From: Candidatus Pelagibacter sp.
GTDB lineage: Bacteria; Pseudomonadota; Alphaproteobacteria; Pelagibacterales; Pelagibacteraceae
Assembly: GCA_028225715.1 (NCBI GenBank)
Contig: JAOIXS010000009.1
Location: 1 to 37,928, forward strand
Direction: 5' to 3'
Length of the DNA stretch: 37,928 nt
The translations under genes were made by a program, and so were the position numbers. Below, piece after piece: positions 8,990-23,119 of the stretch. Under the pieces are notes generated by a model, which was given only the letters and a program-made list of their open reading frames with translations, was not told the DNA's origin and did not search any database. The first letter of the stretch is position 1, and every line of letters begins with the position of its first letter.

Positions 8990-9047
8990 AATTTAATATT
9001 ATTTACTATGTTGATTAATTACAACTAGCAATTTAGACTAAGGACAA

Positions 9048-9470
9048 ATGAACACATTTTTATTATTATTAGTTGGCATTCCTATTATTGAGATTTATTT
9101 GTTTATCAAGCTAGGTTCTCAAATTGGAGCCATTAACACGATTTTACTCATCTTTATTACAGCTTTTTTTGGTGTCATCTATGCCAGATATGAAGGTTTT
9201 AACACTCTAAAATCAGGAATGTCTCAAATGTTAAAAAATGAACTTCCAGTTTATGAGATCATTTCAGGTGCAGCTTTAGCATTTGCAGCATTACTTTTGA
9301 TTTTACCTGGTTTTGCTACAGACTTCTTGGGTTTATTAATAATATTTCCACTAACAAGAAAATTGATATTTAAAAAAGTATCAATTAAACAAAAGCCTAT
9401 AAATAAAAAACAAGATTTTATTAATGGTGAATTTGAAGATATAGAGGATGAAAATGACAGAAAATTTTAA
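9048..9470 (+). CDS. fxsA: FxsA family membrane protein
   Basis: Small cytoplasmic-membrane protein. E. coli FxsA, when overproduced, relieves F-plasmid exclusion of phage T7; its cellular function is not established. The product has 140 residues with three to four hydrophobic helices (about 2-22, 27-47, 73-88 and 92-105) and the family signature GxxxARYEGF (IYARYEGFNTLKSG), then LLILPGFATDFLGLLIIFP. The charged tail is KKQDFINGEFEDIEDEN. An AAGGA lies only three bases before the ATG, a rather short spacing. The last 23 bases overlap secB. Pairing with secB, dnaQ and the Tim44-like gene is alphaproteobacterial synteny. Confidence 0.92.
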   Translation: MNTFLLLLVGIPIIEIYLFIKLGSQIGAINTILLIFITAFFGVIYARYEGFNTLKSGMSQMLKNELPVYEIISGAALAFAALLLILPGFATDFLGLLIIFPLTRKLIFKKVSIKQKPINKKQDFINGEFEDIEDENDRKF

Positions 9471-9876
9471 AATTATAGGCAGCTTTATTAAAGATATGTC
9501 AAGTGAAACACCAGATGCTCCAACATACATATTTGTAAGAGATAAAATTTCTAAATACAGATTAAATATTGATATTAACTCTAGGGCAGTAAAAAATGGA
9601 ATTATTGAAGTTAATACAATATTAAAATTTTCAGATCAGCCAGAAATTTTAAAAAAAGCACATTTTGAAATAATCTACACCTCTATAGTCAAGGTGGATG
9701 AAAAAGTTTCTGATAAAAAAGAAATGGAAAAAATTATTCTATGTGATGTGCCTAATAAAATTTATCCTAACTTAGAGAGAATATTTTTAAGTTTATTAAC
9801 CGACTCTGGTTATCCTGGAATAAAATTTGAAAAAAAAATTGATTTTGCTGAATTGTACAAACAAAGAGCTAATTAA
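9448..9876 (+). CDS. secB: Protein-export chaperone SecB
   Basis: Tetrameric cytosolic chaperone that holds preproteins unfolded and hands them to SecA. The product has 142 residues from the ATG at 9448; a second ATG two codons on (9454) is an equally good start. Conserved strands are YIFVRDKISKYRLNIDINSR, then an HFEIIYTSIVKV strand, then the NLERIFLSLLTDSGYPGIKFEKKIDFAELYKQR end, which matches the family's I-x-x-L-T-x-D-G-GFP-P-L-x-L-x-x-I-D-F-x-x-L-Y motif, though several usual residues are changed. It is a little shorter than typical alphaproteobacterial SecB (about 155-170). It overlaps fxsA at the start and converges with dnaQ, overlapping it by eight bases. Confidence 0.9.
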   Translation: MKMTENFKIIGSFIKDMSSETPDAPTYIFVRDKISKYRLNIDINSRAVKNGIIEVNTILKFSDQPEILKKAHFEIIYTSIVKVDEKVSDKKEMEKIILCDVPNKIYPNLERIFLSLLTDSGYPGIKFEKKIDFAELYKQRAN

Positions 9877-11905: not shown

Positions 11906-12489
11906 TCTGTAATATTCAGATATTCTTTAATTTTTTTAACAGGGAGGCCCATAATCGTATCTTCATCACCTTCTATTTTTGAAAATAAATTTCTTCCCTC
12001 TCCTTCGATTTGATAAACATTATAAGCATAGAGGTTTTTATCAGAAATTTTTTTTAAGTAATTTTCTAGCTCCAAAAAAGTCATATTTTTCATAGTTAAT
12101 GAGGCTTTATCTGTATAATTCCATATCATGGAACCACCTCTTGATATGCAAACCGAACTTATTAGTTGATGGGTTTTTCCATTCATCCTTTTTAATATTT
12201 CTAGTGCTTCTACTCTATCGTTTGGTTTCGATATTACTTCACCTTCTAAGTCTATTACGCTGTCTGCTCCAAGTACCATTTCCTCTATAAATTTTTGACT
12301 TATTTTGTTGGCTTTTAATTCTGCTAAATTTTTTGAAATAATTTCTGGAGAAGCCCTTTCTTTTAAAAGGCTTTCTTTAACATTATCCTCATCCACGTTA
12401 GATGGCTCTATTTTACACTGAATATTGTTTTCTTCTAAAATTTTTTTTCTTACACCACTTTTCGACGCAAGTATAATTTTTTTAACCAT
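11902..12489 (-). CDS. maf: Maf family nucleotide pyrophosphatase
   Basis: Hydrolyses non-canonical or excess nucleoside triphosphates (house-cleaning); older annotations call it a septum-formation inhibitor. The product has 195 residues. The family motifs are ASKSGVRKKIL (S/R-x-x-x-L at residues 8-18), the VDEDN segment, the catalytic LGADSVIDLEGEVISKPND region, and YQIEGEGRNLFSKIEGDEDTIMGLP near the C-terminus. Which Maf subfamily (dTTP/UTP- or 7-methyl-GTP-specific) cannot be assigned confidently by eye. The start overlaps the end of ppsR by eight bases and the stop overlaps aroE. Confidence 0.94.
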   Translation of the reverse strand: MVKKIILASKSGVRKKILEENNIQCKIEPSNVDEDNVKESLLKERASPEIISKNLAELKANKISQKFIEEMVLGADSVIDLEGEVISKPNDRVEALEILKRMNGKTHQLISSVCISRGGSMIWNYTDKASLTMKNMTFLELENYLKKISDKNLYAYNVYQIEGEGRNLFSKIEGDEDTIMGLPVKKIKEYLNITE

Positions 12490-13306
12490 TGTTTTTTTTT
12501 ATTTCATATATTTTAATTATTGATGCTGCGGTTTCTTCTACTGATTTTCTGGTAACATCAATTGTTGGCCATTTATATTTGGTAAATGTTTTTTTAGCCT
12601 CCCTAATCTCTTTTTCTATTTTTCTAATATCTGTGTAATTAGTATTTTCTTTTTCTTTAAGAGCATTCATTCTATTTTTTCTAATATCGACTAATCTCTG
12701 AGGTTCAGTTGTTAAGCCAACCACACAAGAAAGTTTGGGATTTGTCTTTAAAATTTCTGGTATTGATTGCTCATTTACCAAAGGAATATTTAAAGTTTTA
12801 TAACCTCTGTTAGCAAGATAGATTGATGTTGGTGTTTTGCTTGTCCTGCTAACACCCAACAATATCAGGTCTGCTTTTTCTATGTCTTCAACAAGGTTTC
12901 CATCGTCATGGGCCATAGTAAATTGGATTGCTTCAATTCTTTCATAATATTCTTCATTCAGGGCATGTTGTCCACTTGGAACGTGGGATGCCTTTTGATT
13001 TAAAAGTTTTGAGAAATTCATTATTAAGTTTCCCAAAACGCTGAAGCATGGAATTTTTTTTTCGTCACCTTTATTTGCTAAGTGTTTGGCTAGAGAAGTA
13101 TCAACAATTGTATATAAAATTATTGCATTATCATTTTTTTTTGCTTCTTCCATTATTTTAGAAACTTGGTTTTCCGTTCTTGTAAAAAAGTAAGATTTTA
13201 CATCATATTCTATGTTTTTAAATTGAGCTTTAATTGCTAGAAAAACTCTATCCAATGTTTCTCCAGTAGAGTCAGAAATAAGGTATATTTGATATGTATT
13301 ACTCAT
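12482..13306 (-). CDS. ppsR: Pyruvate,phosphate dikinase / PEP synthase regulatory protein (DUF299)
   Basis: Bifunctional serine/threonine kinase and pyrophosphorylase that switches pyruvate phosphate dikinase or PEP synthase off with ADP and back on with phosphate. The product has 274 residues. The kinase P-loop-like signature of the family is GVSRTSKTPTSIYLANRG (start residue 151), and the N-terminus YLISDSTGETLDRV is characteristic. Whether the target is PpdK or PpsA cannot be told here; PpdK is common in this lineage. It is the first gene left of the putative origin, reading away from it. A DUF299 gene opposite hemE at the origin is also the arrangement in Caulobacter. Confidence 0.94.
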   Translation of the reverse strand: MSNTYQIYLISDSTGETLDRVFLAIKAQFKNIEYDVKSYFFTRTENQVSKIMEEAKKNDNAIILYTIVDTSLAKHLANKGDEKKIPCFSVLGNLIMNFSKLLNQKASHVPSGQHALNEEYYERIEAIQFTMAHDDGNLVEDIEKADLILLGVSRTSKTPTSIYLANRGYKTLNIPLVNEQSIPEILKTNPKLSCVVGLTTEPQRLVDIRKNRMNALKEKENTNYTDIRKIEKEIREAKKTFTKYKWPTIDVTRKSVEETAASIIKIYEIKKNNG

Positions 13307-13590
13307 GAATAAAATGTTGGTAATTAAGTATTATTTTTATCATTTTTTAAAATAATCATATTTATTATTTTTCTTTGTAAAACCCTATTTTTATAAACAT
13401 TAATAAACATGTTAAATATTAATATACATTTTATCTAACAATATTAAATAAAGCCTTAGATTTGAGACTATATAACAATTCTATAACTCATTAATTGTTG
13501 ATAAGTTATGTATAAAAACTGAAAAACAAATAATTACCGTTATTCACATACTATATAACTAATACTATAATTAAATATTTACTTATTATT
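13307..13590. other. oriC: Putative chromosomal replication origin (oriC)
   Basis: This 284-base gene-free spacer between divergent ppsR and hemE is the largest in the window. It is extremely AT-rich and contains TTATTCACA at 13540-13548, a full match to the DnaA box TTATnCACA, plus two one-mismatch boxes: TTATAAACA (13391-13399) and TGTTGATAA (13496-13504, reverse orientation). AT-only tracts (for example 13411-13430 and 13441-13450) could serve as an unwinding element. Genes on both sides read outward over 3.4 kb to the left and 9.5 kb to the right. The hemE/DUF299 spacer is the known origin in Caulobacter, and hemE flanks the predicted origin in Rickettsia. No GANTC methylation site and no TTAA-N7-TTAA CtrA site is present. 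Confidence 0.65.
13543..13571 (+). promoter_or_regulatory. hemE promoter overlapping a DnaA box
   Basis: TTCACA (13543-13548; five of six to TTGACA), 17 bases, then TATAAT (13566-13571; six of six). Transcription would start near 13578, giving a leader of about 13 bases without a Shine-Dalgarno. The -35 box lies wholly inside the DnaA box at 13540-13548, so DnaA binding would be expected to compete with RNA polymerase. Confidence 0.65.
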
Positions 13591-14592
13591 ATGACACCCA
13601 TTCAAGAAACCATAATAAACAAAAAAACAAATAATTCTCCAATATGGTTAATGAGACAAGCCGGCAGATATTTACCAGAATTTAGAGAAATTAGAAAATT
13701 AAATCCAGACTTTATAAACTTATGCTTAAATGAAAATTTATCTTCAGAGATAACTTTGCAACCTCTTAAAAGATTTAATTTAGATGCTGCTATAATTTTT
13801 TCAGATATTTTAATGATCCCATATGGATTAAACCAAGTAGTAAAATTTGAAAAAAATTTTGGACCGAAATTAGGTTCTTTAAATTTAGAAAATATATCTA
13901 AAGTTGATGAAATTGATTTTATAGAAAAATTATATCCAATTTATAAATCAATTAAAAAAGTTAGTGAAGATAATTTAATAAAAAATAAAAATTTAATAGG
14001 ATTTGTTGGCGCTCCATGGACATTACTAGTTTATATGATTAATAAACATTCCCCAAAAAAAGAACTGGTAAAAGATTTCTTTAAAGATGAATTTTTAATA
14101 AATAGAATTTTAATAATTCTAGAGAAGTTTTTAAAATTACACATTGATCACCAAATAAAAAATGGTGCAACAGTAATTCAAATTTTTGATAGTTGGGCCG
14201 GTCTCCTAGAAGAAAAAGATCTACCAAGCTACGTATATGTTCCAACATTAAATTTGGTTAATTATGTTAAATCACTAAATATTCCTGTAATTTGTTTTCC
14301 AAGAGGAATAAAAAATTATAAAAATTATTGTGATATCGTAAAACCTGATGCAGTTAATATTGACTATGATGTCGATCCTGTTTCAATATGTAGAGAAATA
14401 AAAATACCAGTTCAAGGCGGCCTTGATCCTAAAGTTTTATTAACGGATAAAGAAAATTTGAAAAAAGAGACTTTAAAATATTTAAACACCTTTAAAGATC
14501 ATCCCTATATATTTAATTTAGGTCATGGGGTGTTACCCGAAACCAATCCCGACATGGTCGATTACTTAGTCAAAACAGTGAAAGATTATTAA
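13591..14592 (+). CDS. hemE: Uroporphyrinogen decarboxylase HemE
   Basis: Cofactor-free decarboxylation of uroporphyrinogen III to coproporphyrinogen III in heme synthesis. The product has 333 residues. The N-terminal WLMRQAGRYLPEF motif (residues 19-31, with substrate-binding Arg22 and Arg26) and Asp72 in FSDILMIPYG, the pyrrole-binding aspartate, are present, as are the GFVGAPWTLLVYM and FDSWAGLL segments and the C-terminal FNLGHGVLPETNPD motif with its conserved His. It is preceded by a consensus promoter inside the putative origin. The stop codon directly abuts the hemH ATG. Confidence 0.98.
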   Translation: MTPIQETIINKKTNNSPIWLMRQAGRYLPEFREIRKLNPDFINLCLNENLSSEITLQPLKRFNLDAAIIFSDILMIPYGLNQVVKFEKNFGPKLGSLNLENISKVDEIDFIEKLYPIYKSIKKVSEDNLIKNKNLIGFVGAPWTLLVYMINKHSPKKELVKDFFKDEFLINRILIILEKFLKLHIDHQIKNGATVIQIFDSWAGLLEEKDLPSYVYVPTLNLVNYVKSLNIPVICFPRGIKNYKNYCDIVKPDAVNIDYDVDPVSICREIKIPVQGGLDPKVLLTDKENLKKETLKYLNTFKDHPYIFNLGHGVLPETNPDMVDYLVKTVKDY

Positions 14593-17389: not shown

Positions 17390-17421
17390 CACAGTTGTAC
17401 CCTCACCAATTAATTTAAAGT

Positions 17422-17451
17422 TTTACAGAACTACAAAATTGAAGCTATAAT
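17422..17451 (+). promoter_or_regulatory. mnmE promoter predicting a leaderless mRNA
   Basis: TTTACA (17422-17427; five of six), 18 bases, then TATAAT (17446-17451; six of six). The ATG of mnmE begins at 17458, seven bases after the end of the -10 box, where transcription itself would be expected to start. No Shine-Dalgarno is possible in such a transcript. Confidence 0.6.
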
Positions 17452-17457
17452 ATTAGC

Positions 17458-20827: not shown

Positions 20828-21468
20828 TGGAAGAAATTTTTAAAAAGTATCCACTACTAAAAAACCAAAATGTTCCACGTGAAACATTAATGGAGTTTGA
20901 GCTATTTATATCCATGCTACAGCGGGGAAATGACGAAATTAATATAATAAGTAAAGAAACAGCCAAAAATGAGGTTATTAGAGAACGTCATATAATTGAT
21001 TCAGCACAAACTATTGAATTTGTTGATTTAAATAGTAATATTATAACAGATATAGGTTCTGGTGGAGGTATGCCAGGTATAATTATATCAATTATGATTA
21101 AAAATCAGAAAAATTCGATCAAAGTTCACTTATATGAAAAAAGTCACCATAAAAGCTCTTTTTTAAGAAAAGTATCTAGAGATTTAAAATTAAATACCGA
21201 AGTCATGCAAGAAAATATTTTTGAGGCACAAAATTTAGACTCGGGTACAATAATGGCAAGAGCTTTTAAACCTTTGCCTATAATTTTAGATTTAGTCTAT
21301 AAAAATTTTAATAGTTACAAAAATTTAATTGTCTTCATGGGAAAAAATGGTGAAAAAGTTTTAGAAGAAACTTTAGTAAATTGGGATTTTGATTTTGAAA
21401 AGAAAAAAAGTATTACAAGTGAAGATTCATTTTTATTAAACATAAAAAACATTAAAAAAAAATATTAA
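20827..21468 (+). CDS. rsmG: 16S rRNA (guanine527-N7)-methyltransferase RsmG (GidB)
   Basis: S-adenosylmethionine-dependent methylation of G527 in 16S rRNA. The product has 213 residues. The SAM-binding loop is TDIGSGGGMPGI (near residues 76-87), preceded by the ERHIIDSAQ segment and followed by HLYEKSHHKSSFLRKV and the IMARAFKPLP segment (A-R-A motif). Residues Asn15 to Thr20 (NVPRET) are encoded by a near-perfect parS site, so this part of the protein is shaped by DNA-level selection. It is translationally coupled to mnmG and lies eight bases before parA. Confidence 0.97.
   Translation: MEEIFKKYPLLKNQNVPRETLMEFELFISMLQRGNDEINIISKETAKNEVIRERHIIDSAQTIEFVDLNSNIITDIGSGGGMPGIIISIMIKNQKNSIKVHLYEKSHHKSSFLRKVSRDLKLNTEVMQENIFEAQNLDSGTIMARAFKPLPIILDLVYKNFNSYKNLIVFMGKNGEKVLEETLVNWDFDFEKKKSITSEDSFLLNIKNIKKKY
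20871..20886. other. parS: parS centromere site (ParB-binding) inside rsmG
   Basis: TGTTCCACGTGAAACA. It differs from the canonical parS TGTTTCACGTGAAACA at one base, and fits the degenerate form TGTTnCACGTGAAACA exactly. It lies 606 bases before parA and 7.3 kb from the putative origin. In the rsmG frame it supplies the end of Asn15 through Thr20. I found no second copy in the window. Confidence 0.9.
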
Positions 21469-21476
21469 AAAACTAG

Positions 21477-22271
21477 ATGCAAATTATTTCTGTAATAAAT
21501 CAAAAGGGTGGGGTCGGAAAAACAACAACAGTAATTAATCTTGCAGCAGGTTTAGCTCAACAAGAAAAAAAAGTTTTAGTAATCGATCTTGATCCACAAG
21601 GAAATGCTACTACAGGACTAGGACTATCCAATTTAGAAAATTCGACTGATACTATTTATGGAGTGTTGAATGGAACAAAGACAATTTCTGATGTGATAAG
21701 AAAAACCGAGTTCAAAAATTTAGATATAGTTACTTCTAATGTAGACTTATCTGGCCTCGAGGTCGAAACAGCTGATGATAATATGAGAGCCTTCATTTTA
21801 AAACGCGAATTAACCCTATATTTAAATGATTCTAGATCAACCTATGATTATATACTTATAGATTGTCCACCATCATTAAGTTTGCTCACAGTCATGGCTC
21901 TGGTGTCTTCTCACTCGCTATTGGTGCCGCTACAAACTGAATTTTTTGCTTTAGAAGGTTTAACCCAGCTAATGAAAACCATAGAACGAATAAAAGTTAA
22001 TTTAAATCCTGAATTAAAAATAAGAGGCATACTTTTAACAATGTATGACAAGAGGAACAAACTTTCAACGCAAGTTGAAAAAGAAGCAAGAGATTATTTT
22101 AATGAAAAAGTTTATCTAACCGTGATCCCAAGAAATGTTAGACTGTCAGAGGCCCCATCACATGGTATGCCTGTTTTAATTTATGACAAATCATGTCCAG
22201 GCAGTAAATCATATTTTAAATTTACAGATGAATTTATTAATCAAGAACAAAAAATAGGGAGTGCTGCATAA
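21477..22271 (+). CDS. parA: Chromosome partitioning ATPase ParA
   Basis: Walker-type ATPase that forms a nucleoid-bound gradient and draws ParB-parS complexes apart. The product has 264 residues. The deviant Walker A is KGGVGKTT (10-17, with the signature Lys10), then the LVIDLDPQGNATTGLG segment (A' motif) and YILIDCPPSLSLLT (Walker B region). Length is that of chromosomal ParA rather than plasmid ParA, which carries a longer N-terminal DNA-binding domain. It is followed by parB with a TAATG overlap and preceded by rsmG with its parS site, so both proteins and their site are in one 2.3-kb stretch. Confidence 0.98.
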   Translation: MQIISVINQKGGVGKTTTVINLAAGLAQQEKKVLVIDLDPQGNATTGLGLSNLENSTDTIYGVLNGTKTISDVIRKTEFKNLDIVTSNVDLSGLEVETADDNMRAFILKRELTLYLNDSRSTYDYILIDCPPSLSLLTVMALVSSHSLLVPLQTEFFALEGLTQLMKTIERIKVNLNPELKIRGILLTMYDKRNKLSTQVEKEARDYFNEKVYLTVIPRNVRLSEAPSHGMPVLIYDKSCPGSKSYFKFTDEFINQEQKIGSAA

Positions 22272-23119
22272 TGGATGCAAATAAAATAAAGAAAGGATTA
22301 GGTAGAGGCCTATCATCTTTGATAGGTGAAACAAAAGCAGAAATAAATGTTAATAAAATTTCGATATCTGATCTCGTAAGCAATAAATTTCAACCAAGGA
22401 AAACATTTGATGAGGAAAGTTTACAAGATTTAACAAACTCAATAAAAGAGAGAGGCGTTATTCAGCCAATTATTGTTAGAAAATCTAATAATGATAATTC
22501 AAAGTATGAGATAATTGCTGGAGAAAGAAGGTGGTTATCAGCCCAAAAGGCAGGGTTACACGAGGTTCCAGTAGTTATTACGGATGTAGATGATTTAAAG
22601 TCTTTAGAATTTGCAATTATTGAGAATGTTCAAAGAAATGACTTAAATGCAGTAGAAGAAGCACGTGGTTATCAACGTCTTATCGAAGAGTTTTCATATG
22701 ACCAAGAAAAAGTAGCACAATTTATTGGAAAAAGTAGAAGCCATATTGCTAATTTTTTAAGATTACTAAATCTTCCAGAAGTAGTTTTAAAATTAATTGA
22801 AACTCAAAAATTAACAGCAGGACATGCAAAAATTTTAGTAGGTTTGGATAATGCAGAATTTGTAGCAAATAAATTGGTTGAAAAAAATCTTTCAGTTAGG
22901 CAGTCAGAAAATTTTGTTAAAATTTTTAAGACTAAGAAGAGCTCCCTTAAATCCTCCAAGGATGCAAACCTACAGGCCTTAGAGAATTCAATTAGAGAAA
23001 AAATTGGTCTTAATATTTTAATTAAAAATAAAAAAAATAATTCAGGATCTTTATTATTAGAATATAAAGATTTGGACCAACTAAATAAAATAATTGAAAT
23101 AATAAAATCTAATTATTAG
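22271..23119 (+). CDS. parB: Chromosome partitioning protein ParB
   Basis: CTP-dependent DNA clamp that loads at parS and spreads, then interacts with ParA. The product has 282 residues. In order: a ParA-contacting N-terminal tail GRGLSSLIGE (11-20); the CTPase domain with box GVIQP (62-66) and GERRWLS (84-90); the ENVQRNDLNAVEEARGYQRL segment; a helix-turn-helix (near 152-172, VAQFIGKSRSHIANFLRLL) for parS recognition; and a C-terminal dimerisation domain with a leucine/isoleucine-rich end. In the usual GERRxR box the last Arg is Leu89 here. The 3' end overlaps the convergent holA by 11 bases. Confidence 0.97.
   Translation: MDANKIKKGLGRGLSSLIGETKAEINVNKISISDLVSNKFQPRKTFDEESLQDLTNSIKERGVIQPIIVRKSNNDNSKYEIIAGERRWLSAQKAGLHEVPVVITDVDDLKSLEFAIIENVQRNDLNAVEEARGYQRLIEEFSYDQEKVAQFIGKSRSHIANFLRLLNLPEVVLKLIETQKLTAGHAKILVGLDNAEFVANKLVEKNLSVRQSENFVKIFKTKKSSLKSSKDANLQALENSIREKIGLNILIKNKKNNSGSLLLEYKDLDQLNKIIEIIKSNY

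Follow-up and report, generated by a model that had tools for sequence, protein, structure and literature searches.

We propose that the intergenic spacer between the divergent genes ppsR and hemE is the chromosome replication origin of SAR11, a member of the hemE/COG1806 type found in Caulobacter that would open by the mechanism laid out below; we put the probability of this reading at roughly 0.88. Among relatives the spacer, its DnaA boxes, a triplet period and a strand bias are conserved, a parS site lies nearby, and the strand-corrected skew switches in the same neighbourhood. The initial annotation of this DNA had already named the spacer as the likely origin, and the conserved boxes, the corrected skew and the nearby parS support it in this. 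In the window, by which we mean the whole stretch of 37,928 nucleotides that was analysed, the central features are the following.

13307..13590, no strand: putative chromosome origin, the whole ppsR/hemE spacer of 284 bp, marked by length conservation, a box array and a parS nearby
12482..13306, minus strand: ppsR (DUF299), matching NF003742 at E 2.2e-93, over the cut-off
13591..14592, plus strand: hemE, matching TIGR01464 at E 1.6e-92, over the cut-off

The setting is as first described: the spacer is the widest gap between open reading frames in the window (284 bp; the runners-up are 209 and 166 bp), it is flanked by gene sets that read outward, five on the left (ppsR, maf, aroE, coaE, dnaQ) and nine on the right (hemE, hemH, hemJ, rho, mnmE, mnmG, rsmG, parA, parB), and it is AT-rich, with a GC fraction of 0.158 against 0.293 for the window. 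It is not the GC low of the window: among 37644 sliding windows of 284 bp, 161 have a lower GC, and just two of these start less than 200 bp from the spacer start. In its place between hemE and COG1806, and in an AT content above that of the window, the spacer agrees with hemE-type origins.

A HemE search of the genome collection yielded 75 loci, all from Pelagibacter, Pelagibacteraceae or Pelagibacterales. Both ppsR and hemE are present at 73 of these (L071 and L075 are incomplete loci), and these 73 relatives together with the window make up our aligned set of 74 spacers. The spacer measures 260–289 bp at all 73 loci with both genes, and the same range holds for the 69 with strict ends. Comparison gaps at the same loci span 36–3515 bp for rho-mnmE (n = 57), 39–258 bp for mnmE-mnmG (n = 55) and 61–72 bp for hemJ-rho (n = 49); since some other gaps are equally constant, the length constancy of the spacer is not unique on its own. 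In a second group of genomes (G091–G093 and G095–G102) the PpsR search gave no match and the divergent neighbour of hemE is maf; here the maf-hemE gap is 265–280 bp in 11 of 11. The closest complete chromosome that we reached, G088 (1,308,759 bp), has PpsR and HemE at 96% and 95% identity, and the window DNA matches it at 92% identity along 17.4 kb and at 88% along most of the remainder. Two further stretches drew our attention. The rho-mnmE gap (17390–17457) is an insertion spot, 68 bp long here and ~2 kb longer in G088, and the stretch from a Tim44/TimA-like gene to dnaQ (8990–9868), with two open reading frames inside, is 879–883 bp at the 10th–90th percentile of 62 loci.

The spacer holds an array of DnaA boxes at six conserved positions. 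The last of these, b7, has its ACA end towards hemE; in B. subtilis and E. coli it is the ACA end of the box that faces the trios.

13315..13323, minus strand: box b1, TTACCAACA, one mismatch to TTATNMACA; at most one mismatch in 61 of 74 spacers, searched within 4 bp
13391..13399, plus strand: box b2, TTATAAACA; at most one mismatch in 72 of 74
13496..13504, minus strand: box b4, TTATCAACA; at most one mismatch in 70 of 74
13507..13515, minus strand: box b5, TTATACATA, one mismatch; at most one mismatch in 55 of 74
13518..13526, minus strand: position of box b6, degenerate in the window (3 mismatches); at most one mismatch in 49 of 74
13540..13548, plus strand: box b7, TTATTCACA, ACA end towards hemE; at most one mismatch in 62 of 74
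13375..13383, plus strand: conserved TTGTAAAAC element; of 74 spacers, 71 have G at 13377 and 72 have A at 13379

The exact box TTATTCACA reported at 13540–13548 is indeed present. It is one of two TTATNCACA sites in the 37.9-kb window (13540 and 14967) and strictly the only one in the spacer; the boxes with one mismatch to TTATNCACA had been counted as two and are three (13391 on the plus strand, 13496 and 13507 on the minus strand). The conservation among relatives on which the origin proposal had been staked is found at six sites in register, each with at most one mismatch in 49–72 of the 74 spacers. The consensus of the array is TTATN(A/C)ACA, with five of the six boxes recognisable in the window. 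This motif occurs 3.19 times per spacer as against 0.19 in dinucleotide shuffles (17-fold; 74 spacers), and scrambled control motifs occur 0.09, 0.22 and 0.51 times as against 0.23, 0.25 and 0.21. Taken separately, TTATNCACA is found 0.74 times per spacer (0.04 shuffled) and is absent from 33 of 74, and TTATNAACA is found 2.45 times (0.17 shuffled). The six sites nearly always keep an identical offset in the alignment; at 60 random control positions the mean fraction of spacers matching was 0.03 and the maximum 0.41. Within b7, the C at 13545 and the A at 13546 are invariant in all 74 spacers. A seventh position, b3, was dropped, having at most one mismatch in just 18 of 74.

At b2, relatives carry the variants TTATTAACA, TTATTCACA (three spacers) and TTGTTCACA (two spacers), and the last box of G067 is TTATTAACA. 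This interchange of TTATNAACA and TTATNCACA at one site is the best evidence in the sequences that the A-type boxes are DnaA boxes. As expected of hemE-type origins, the spacer has several boxes and more than are found elsewhere: it is the densest 300-bp box cluster within ~200 kb in seven of eight genomes, the exception being G089, whose spacer is without a cluster of at least two exact boxes, and none of 2640 bins of 300 bp contained three boxes (800 kb from two genomes, spacers left out). The TTGTAAAAC element at 13375–13383 is conserved to roughly the same degree as the boxes and matches none of the motifs tried. An Rfam scan of 13200–13700 returned nothing at the gathering score.

Partition functions are encoded on the hemE side. 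The Caulobacter origin likewise has parABS nearby.

20871..20886, no strand: parS TGTTCCACGTGAAACA, one mismatch to the palindrome, inside rsmG
21477..22271, plus strand: parA, with matches to partition proteins of the ParA family; each of the 25 families shown stays below its NCBIfam cut-off
22271..23119, plus strand: parB, matching TIGR00180 at E 1.8e-59, over the cut-off

Among the 59 nearest genomes (G088 to G060, some perhaps incomplete), 52 have a single match to the parS pattern TGTTTCACGTGAAACA when at most one mismatch is allowed, three have two matches and four have none; the reversed control pattern matched in 3 of 59. The distance from parS to the spacer is 7.2–9.4 kb in the nine genomes for which both positions were compared.

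Between box b7 and hemE the spacer takes on a regular form.

13549..13552, no strand: linker, four bases from box to triplets, not GC-rich here; in the BUS survey this box-trio gap, formerly called GC-rich, is 4 bp on average (PMC8287927)
13553..13570, minus strand: DnaA-trio-like run of six triplets; third-base A in 67–74 of 74
13571..13590, no strand: AT-rich stretch to the hemE start, by its sequence a putative unwinding region

The run reads mostly (C/T/A)(T/A)A on the top strand, that is, 3'-(G/A/T)(A/T)T-5' on the lower. Top-strand A stands at 13555, 13558, 13561, 13564, 13567 and 13570 in 73, 74, 74, 74, 72 and 67 of the 74 spacers, and the columns between these adenines mostly have lower identity. 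The phase means are 0.98 versus 0.74 and 0.73 (permutation p 0.005), and no part of the spacer has stronger 3-bp phase contrasts than 13550–13557. A strand bias goes with the period: summed over the 74 spacers, the top strand of 13552–13590 has 8 G versus 249 C, and that of 13307–13535 is balanced (1463 G versus 1251 C). Past the 4-base linker the commonest top-strand triplets are ATA, CTA, CTA, ATA, CTA and TTA. The lower-strand middle base is A in 325 of 444 cells (73% in SAR11), or in 71, 54, 44, 71, 48 and 37 of 74 for triplets one to six. The strict trio 3'-(G/A)A(T/A)-5' accounts for 34% of triplets in phase versus 1% and 8% in the other phases, and C(T/A)A in one register after CACA occurs 2.19 times per SAR11 spacer versus 1.09 when shuffled, with 3 of 74 lacking any. 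At least three triplets lie within 16 bp of a DnaA box, the limit used for BUS elements in PMC8287927. These triplet statistics describe the SAR11 run as a degenerate trio in which the third base is the strongest. Box b7 and the 18-base run together resemble a DnaA-trio unwinding element (BUS), and we regard them as a candidate for one.

The spacer might instead be nothing but the divergent promoter and regulatory region of ppsR and hemE, with its conservation transcriptional, a reading that we consider improbable. Both genes, being divergent, need a promoter, and one promoter-like site for hemE lies directly over the box and the triplets.

13543..13571, plus strand: promoter-like TTCACA-17-TATAAT for hemE, over box and triplets; 11 of 12 matches

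This site ends 19 bases before the hemE ATG. Promoter-like sites overall are not above shuffles (4 versus 5.2), which leaves TTCACA-17-TATAAT as the only one that speaks for a purely transcriptional role. Its conservation is the weaker of the two patterns at this place: 29 of 74 spacers have a −10 element with A2 and T6 at this spacing, whereas the third-base A is present in 67–74. Moreover, the spacer length persists where maf replaces ppsR, and a promoter region as such predicts no box array on two strands, no nearby parS and no skew switch. A hemE promoter may well overlap the origin, yet it would explain neither the 3-base period nor the array.

A still less probable placement, to which we give little credence, puts the origin near dnaA, ~63 kb off, or midway at the turn of the raw skew. 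The constancy of the interval speaks for dnaA: dnaA is 60.4–67.0 kb from hemE in all 16 SAR11 genomes that have the pair on one contig (18 searched). The raw skew speaks for the midpoint. In eight genomes (~200 kb each) it forms a broad basin with spacer and dnaA both inside. In five of them the G-C minimum is displaced from the spacer by +29.4 to +31.8 kb and in three by −27.7 to −28.8 kb; the displacement of the T-A extreme is +31.2 to +33.3 kb in all eight. Raw skew is a weak guide, which leaves the matter undecided and on its own counts against the exact site. Its turns coincide with switches between one-strand gene blocks, and we infer that the changes of gene block cause them.

We therefore set beside it a corrected skew, the third-position G-C skew per gene with gene strand removed (1421 genes, eight genomes). 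The pooled switch then falls at −10 kb from the spacer, with penalties (n ln(RSS) scale) of 23 at the spacer and 35 at both +30 and +60 kb; the dnaA position is merely 12 worse than the spacer. Single-genome switches scatter from −40 to +65 kb, with the sign reversed in G067, and the bootstrap range of −15 to −10 kb is too narrow because genes are common to several genomes. TA3 skew gave no usable change point and was uninformative. As to the suggested check by the position of the skew minimum, the raw extremes lie off the spacer, and the corrected switch is 10 kb away and disfavours dnaA. The corrected skew supports the neighbourhood of the spacer, not an exact base.

Skew sampled in two genomes bears on the same choice. 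In G088 (600 of 1309 kb sampled) the skew has a flat minimum at 300–360 kb, with the spacer at 335.6 kb, and a maximum somewhere from 955 to 990 kb, between two sampled stretches; the antipodes of spacer and dnaA are at 990 and 1054 kb, and within this sampling the maximum is antipodal to the spacer. The sampled maximum of G007 (680–715 kb) is ~90–125 kb off the antipode of the spacer and farther from that of dnaA. As a terminus marker we also tried dif, but rejected it: the pattern CATAAN6TTATGTTAA with one mismatch gave 1–5 scattered matches in each of five genomes, and these were not above a reversed control. Against an origin at or towards dnaA we further count that the 400 bp before dnaA in G088 contain no TTATN(A/C)ACA, and that parS sits at the spacer end of the interval. 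A dnaA-hemE distance of about 61–67 kb is common to SAR11 and G091–G102 (61.5–65.7 kb in six of six G091-group genomes with a measured distance, of 11), despite PpsR being without a match in the latter.

With the ppsR/hemE spacer as the preferred site, its relation to known origins can be considered. The Caulobacter and Rickettsia origins lie between hemE and COG1806 (DUF299), are AT-rich and have DnaA boxes (PMC1914354). The SAR11 spacer shares with Caulobacter crescentus Cori and the predicted Rickettsia origin this position (COG1806 is here ppsR), the AT-richness and the boxes; at 284 bp it is shorter than the 383–404 bp given for Rickettsia and Caulobacter (PMC1914354). It differs from hemE-type origins in that most of its boxes are TTATNAACA. 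A second difference concerns control: unlike the hemE type of Caulobacter, Rickettsia and Wolbachia, the SAR11 spacers have the CtrA motif at chance level and GANTC in 3 of 74, and the window is without an IHF consensus.

GANTC and TTAA-N7-TTAA are both absent from the spacer of the window, as had been noted. Across the set, TTAA-N7-TTAA occurs in 17 of 74 spacers, at 0.28 per spacer versus 0.29 simulated, so CtrA sites show no enrichment, and GANTC occurs at 0.04 versus 0.12 simulated; these counts give no support to CtrA or GANTC control inside the spacer. IHF-like sites are found in 19 of 74 spacers, with a mean of 0.27 versus 0.08 simulated. The earlier expectation that control by CtrA and CcrM would differ from Caulobacter fares well for CtrA, no ctrA ortholog having been found in Pelagibacter according to PMC2877005, and less well for CcrM, a homolog of which is present in SAR11 (PMC3973325). 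The missing ortholog and the simulated level of CtrA motifs together make CtrA control unlikely. The origins of E. ruminantium and of a pseudoscorpion Wolbachia are also described as without CtrA sites (PMC1914354). The SAR11 site is very probably a variant of the known hemE-type origin, one without CtrA-site enrichment.

The 3-base period invites one further reading, as a coding N-terminal extension of HemE, which we dismiss: in 27 of 74 spacers no stop interrupts the frame along the run, but an upstream in-frame start (ATG, GTG or TTG) occurs in 0 of 74, and the run stands in two registers to the ATG (47 and 27 spacers).

Taken as a candidate unwinding element, the run can be compared with two of the closest known systems. 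The H. pylori origin has other flanking genes than the SAR11 spacer. In B. subtilis, DnaA-trios are 3'-GAT-5' triplets that adjoin DnaA boxes (PMC8287927, PMC10721633), and SAR11 shows the same succession of box, short linker, repeated triplets and then AT-rich DNA. The SAR11 type departs from the B. subtilis BUS in that the middle base varies (on the lower strand 73% A in SAR11, and A, T or G in other genomes) and the third-base T is the most fixed. The H. pylori trio is a lower-strand one, written 5'-CTA-3' on the complementary strand (PMC8235120), and in SAR11 too the trio is read on the lower strand; the third H. pylori trio is 3'-GAC-5' (PMC8235120), unlike SAR11.

We extended the comparison in a class-wide search of 57 genomes, 50 of which had a match; the best 30 loci plus three more gave 33, of which 29 have a divergent ppsR or maf at most 1 kb before hemE. 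The genomes beyond SAR11 among these are presumably alphaproteobacterial relatives, judging by their relatedness to G001 and G088 and by the ppsR or maf that adjoins hemE. On the hemE strand, C-N-A triplets form runs of four or more in 8 of 29 spacers versus 1.0% of simulations, and runs of three or longer in 16 of 29; on the opposite strand, runs of four were found in 0 of 29. Among control triplets, A-N-C runs occur in 2 of 29 and G-N-T runs in 0 of 29. No run above two is seen in 13 of 29, some of which (L249, L254 and L256 among them) have interrupted triplets after a box. Next to hemE, G093 and G099 read CACAGG(T/C)ACAACTACTACTACTA, and the order of box, linker, triplets and AT-rich DNA recurs in G119, G135 and others. 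In runs of at least three the top-strand middle base is T 24, A 21, C 20 and G 1 times, which gives 3'-G(A/T/G)T-5' on the lower strand.

The DnaA protein offers a possible counterpart. Asn187 of B. subtilis DnaA holds the middle adenine and Asn196 touches the third base (PMC10721633). We placed the corresponding residues by eye, from the 8btg alignment and a conserved motif; in SAR11 DnaA those at 187, 190, 193, 196, 202 and 228 are Tyr, Val, Ile, Asn, Lys and Glu, respectively. A Tyr or Phe occupies position 187 in eight of eight SAR11 and 12 of 12 other chosen DnaAs (20 of 20), in place of the Asn187 of B. subtilis. All 20 keep the domain IV motif RDHTT (RDHST in G112). The residues before it are SN in seven of eight SAR11 DnaAs and AN in the other (G067), and GG in 10 of the 12 others; as a speculation, this SN/AN change in the box-reading domain might accompany the A-type boxes. 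A broader proposal, to which we give slightly less than even odds, is that in alphaproteobacteria including SAR11 the hemE-side origin is opened through a deviant trio code, 3'-GNT-5' with the middle base free, whose outer bases would be read by a DnaA without an equivalent of Asn187. If true, this code would correspond to the deviant trio whose existence was suspected by the BUS survey's authors (PMC8287927).

For the ppsR/hemE spacer as origin we envisage the following course, which the sequences suggest. DnaA would bind strong and weak TTATN(A/C)ACA boxes on both strands over ~230 bp. A filament would start at the box at 13540–13548, follow the lower strand over the six triplets at 13553–13570 and open the AT-rich 40 bp before the hemE start. 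Helicase would load in the opened region and two forks depart, ParB on the parS 7.3 kb away would move the new origin, and the whole would probably proceed under control free of CtrA.

DoriC, a database of origins, may list the site; among the literature matches listed we found neither a SAR11 origin at ppsR/hemE nor a description of trios in alphaproteobacteria. Apparently new are the anatomy at base level and the trio code proposed for alphaproteobacteria. SAR11 are among the commonest bacteria of the ocean, and their growth at sea is estimated from origin-to-terminus read ratios, for which a base-exact origin would supply a fixed point. A single V-shaped coverage pattern, anchored by the coverage minimum, has been described for SAR11 in PMC9589681, the excerpts of which name no origin locus. 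A base-exact origin would also be a candidate for building autonomously replicating plasmids. The triplet finding makes the guess of trios without a middle A testable on named sequences and a named DnaA residue, and a SAR11 origin at this site would reveal what a hemE-type origin retains without CtrA.
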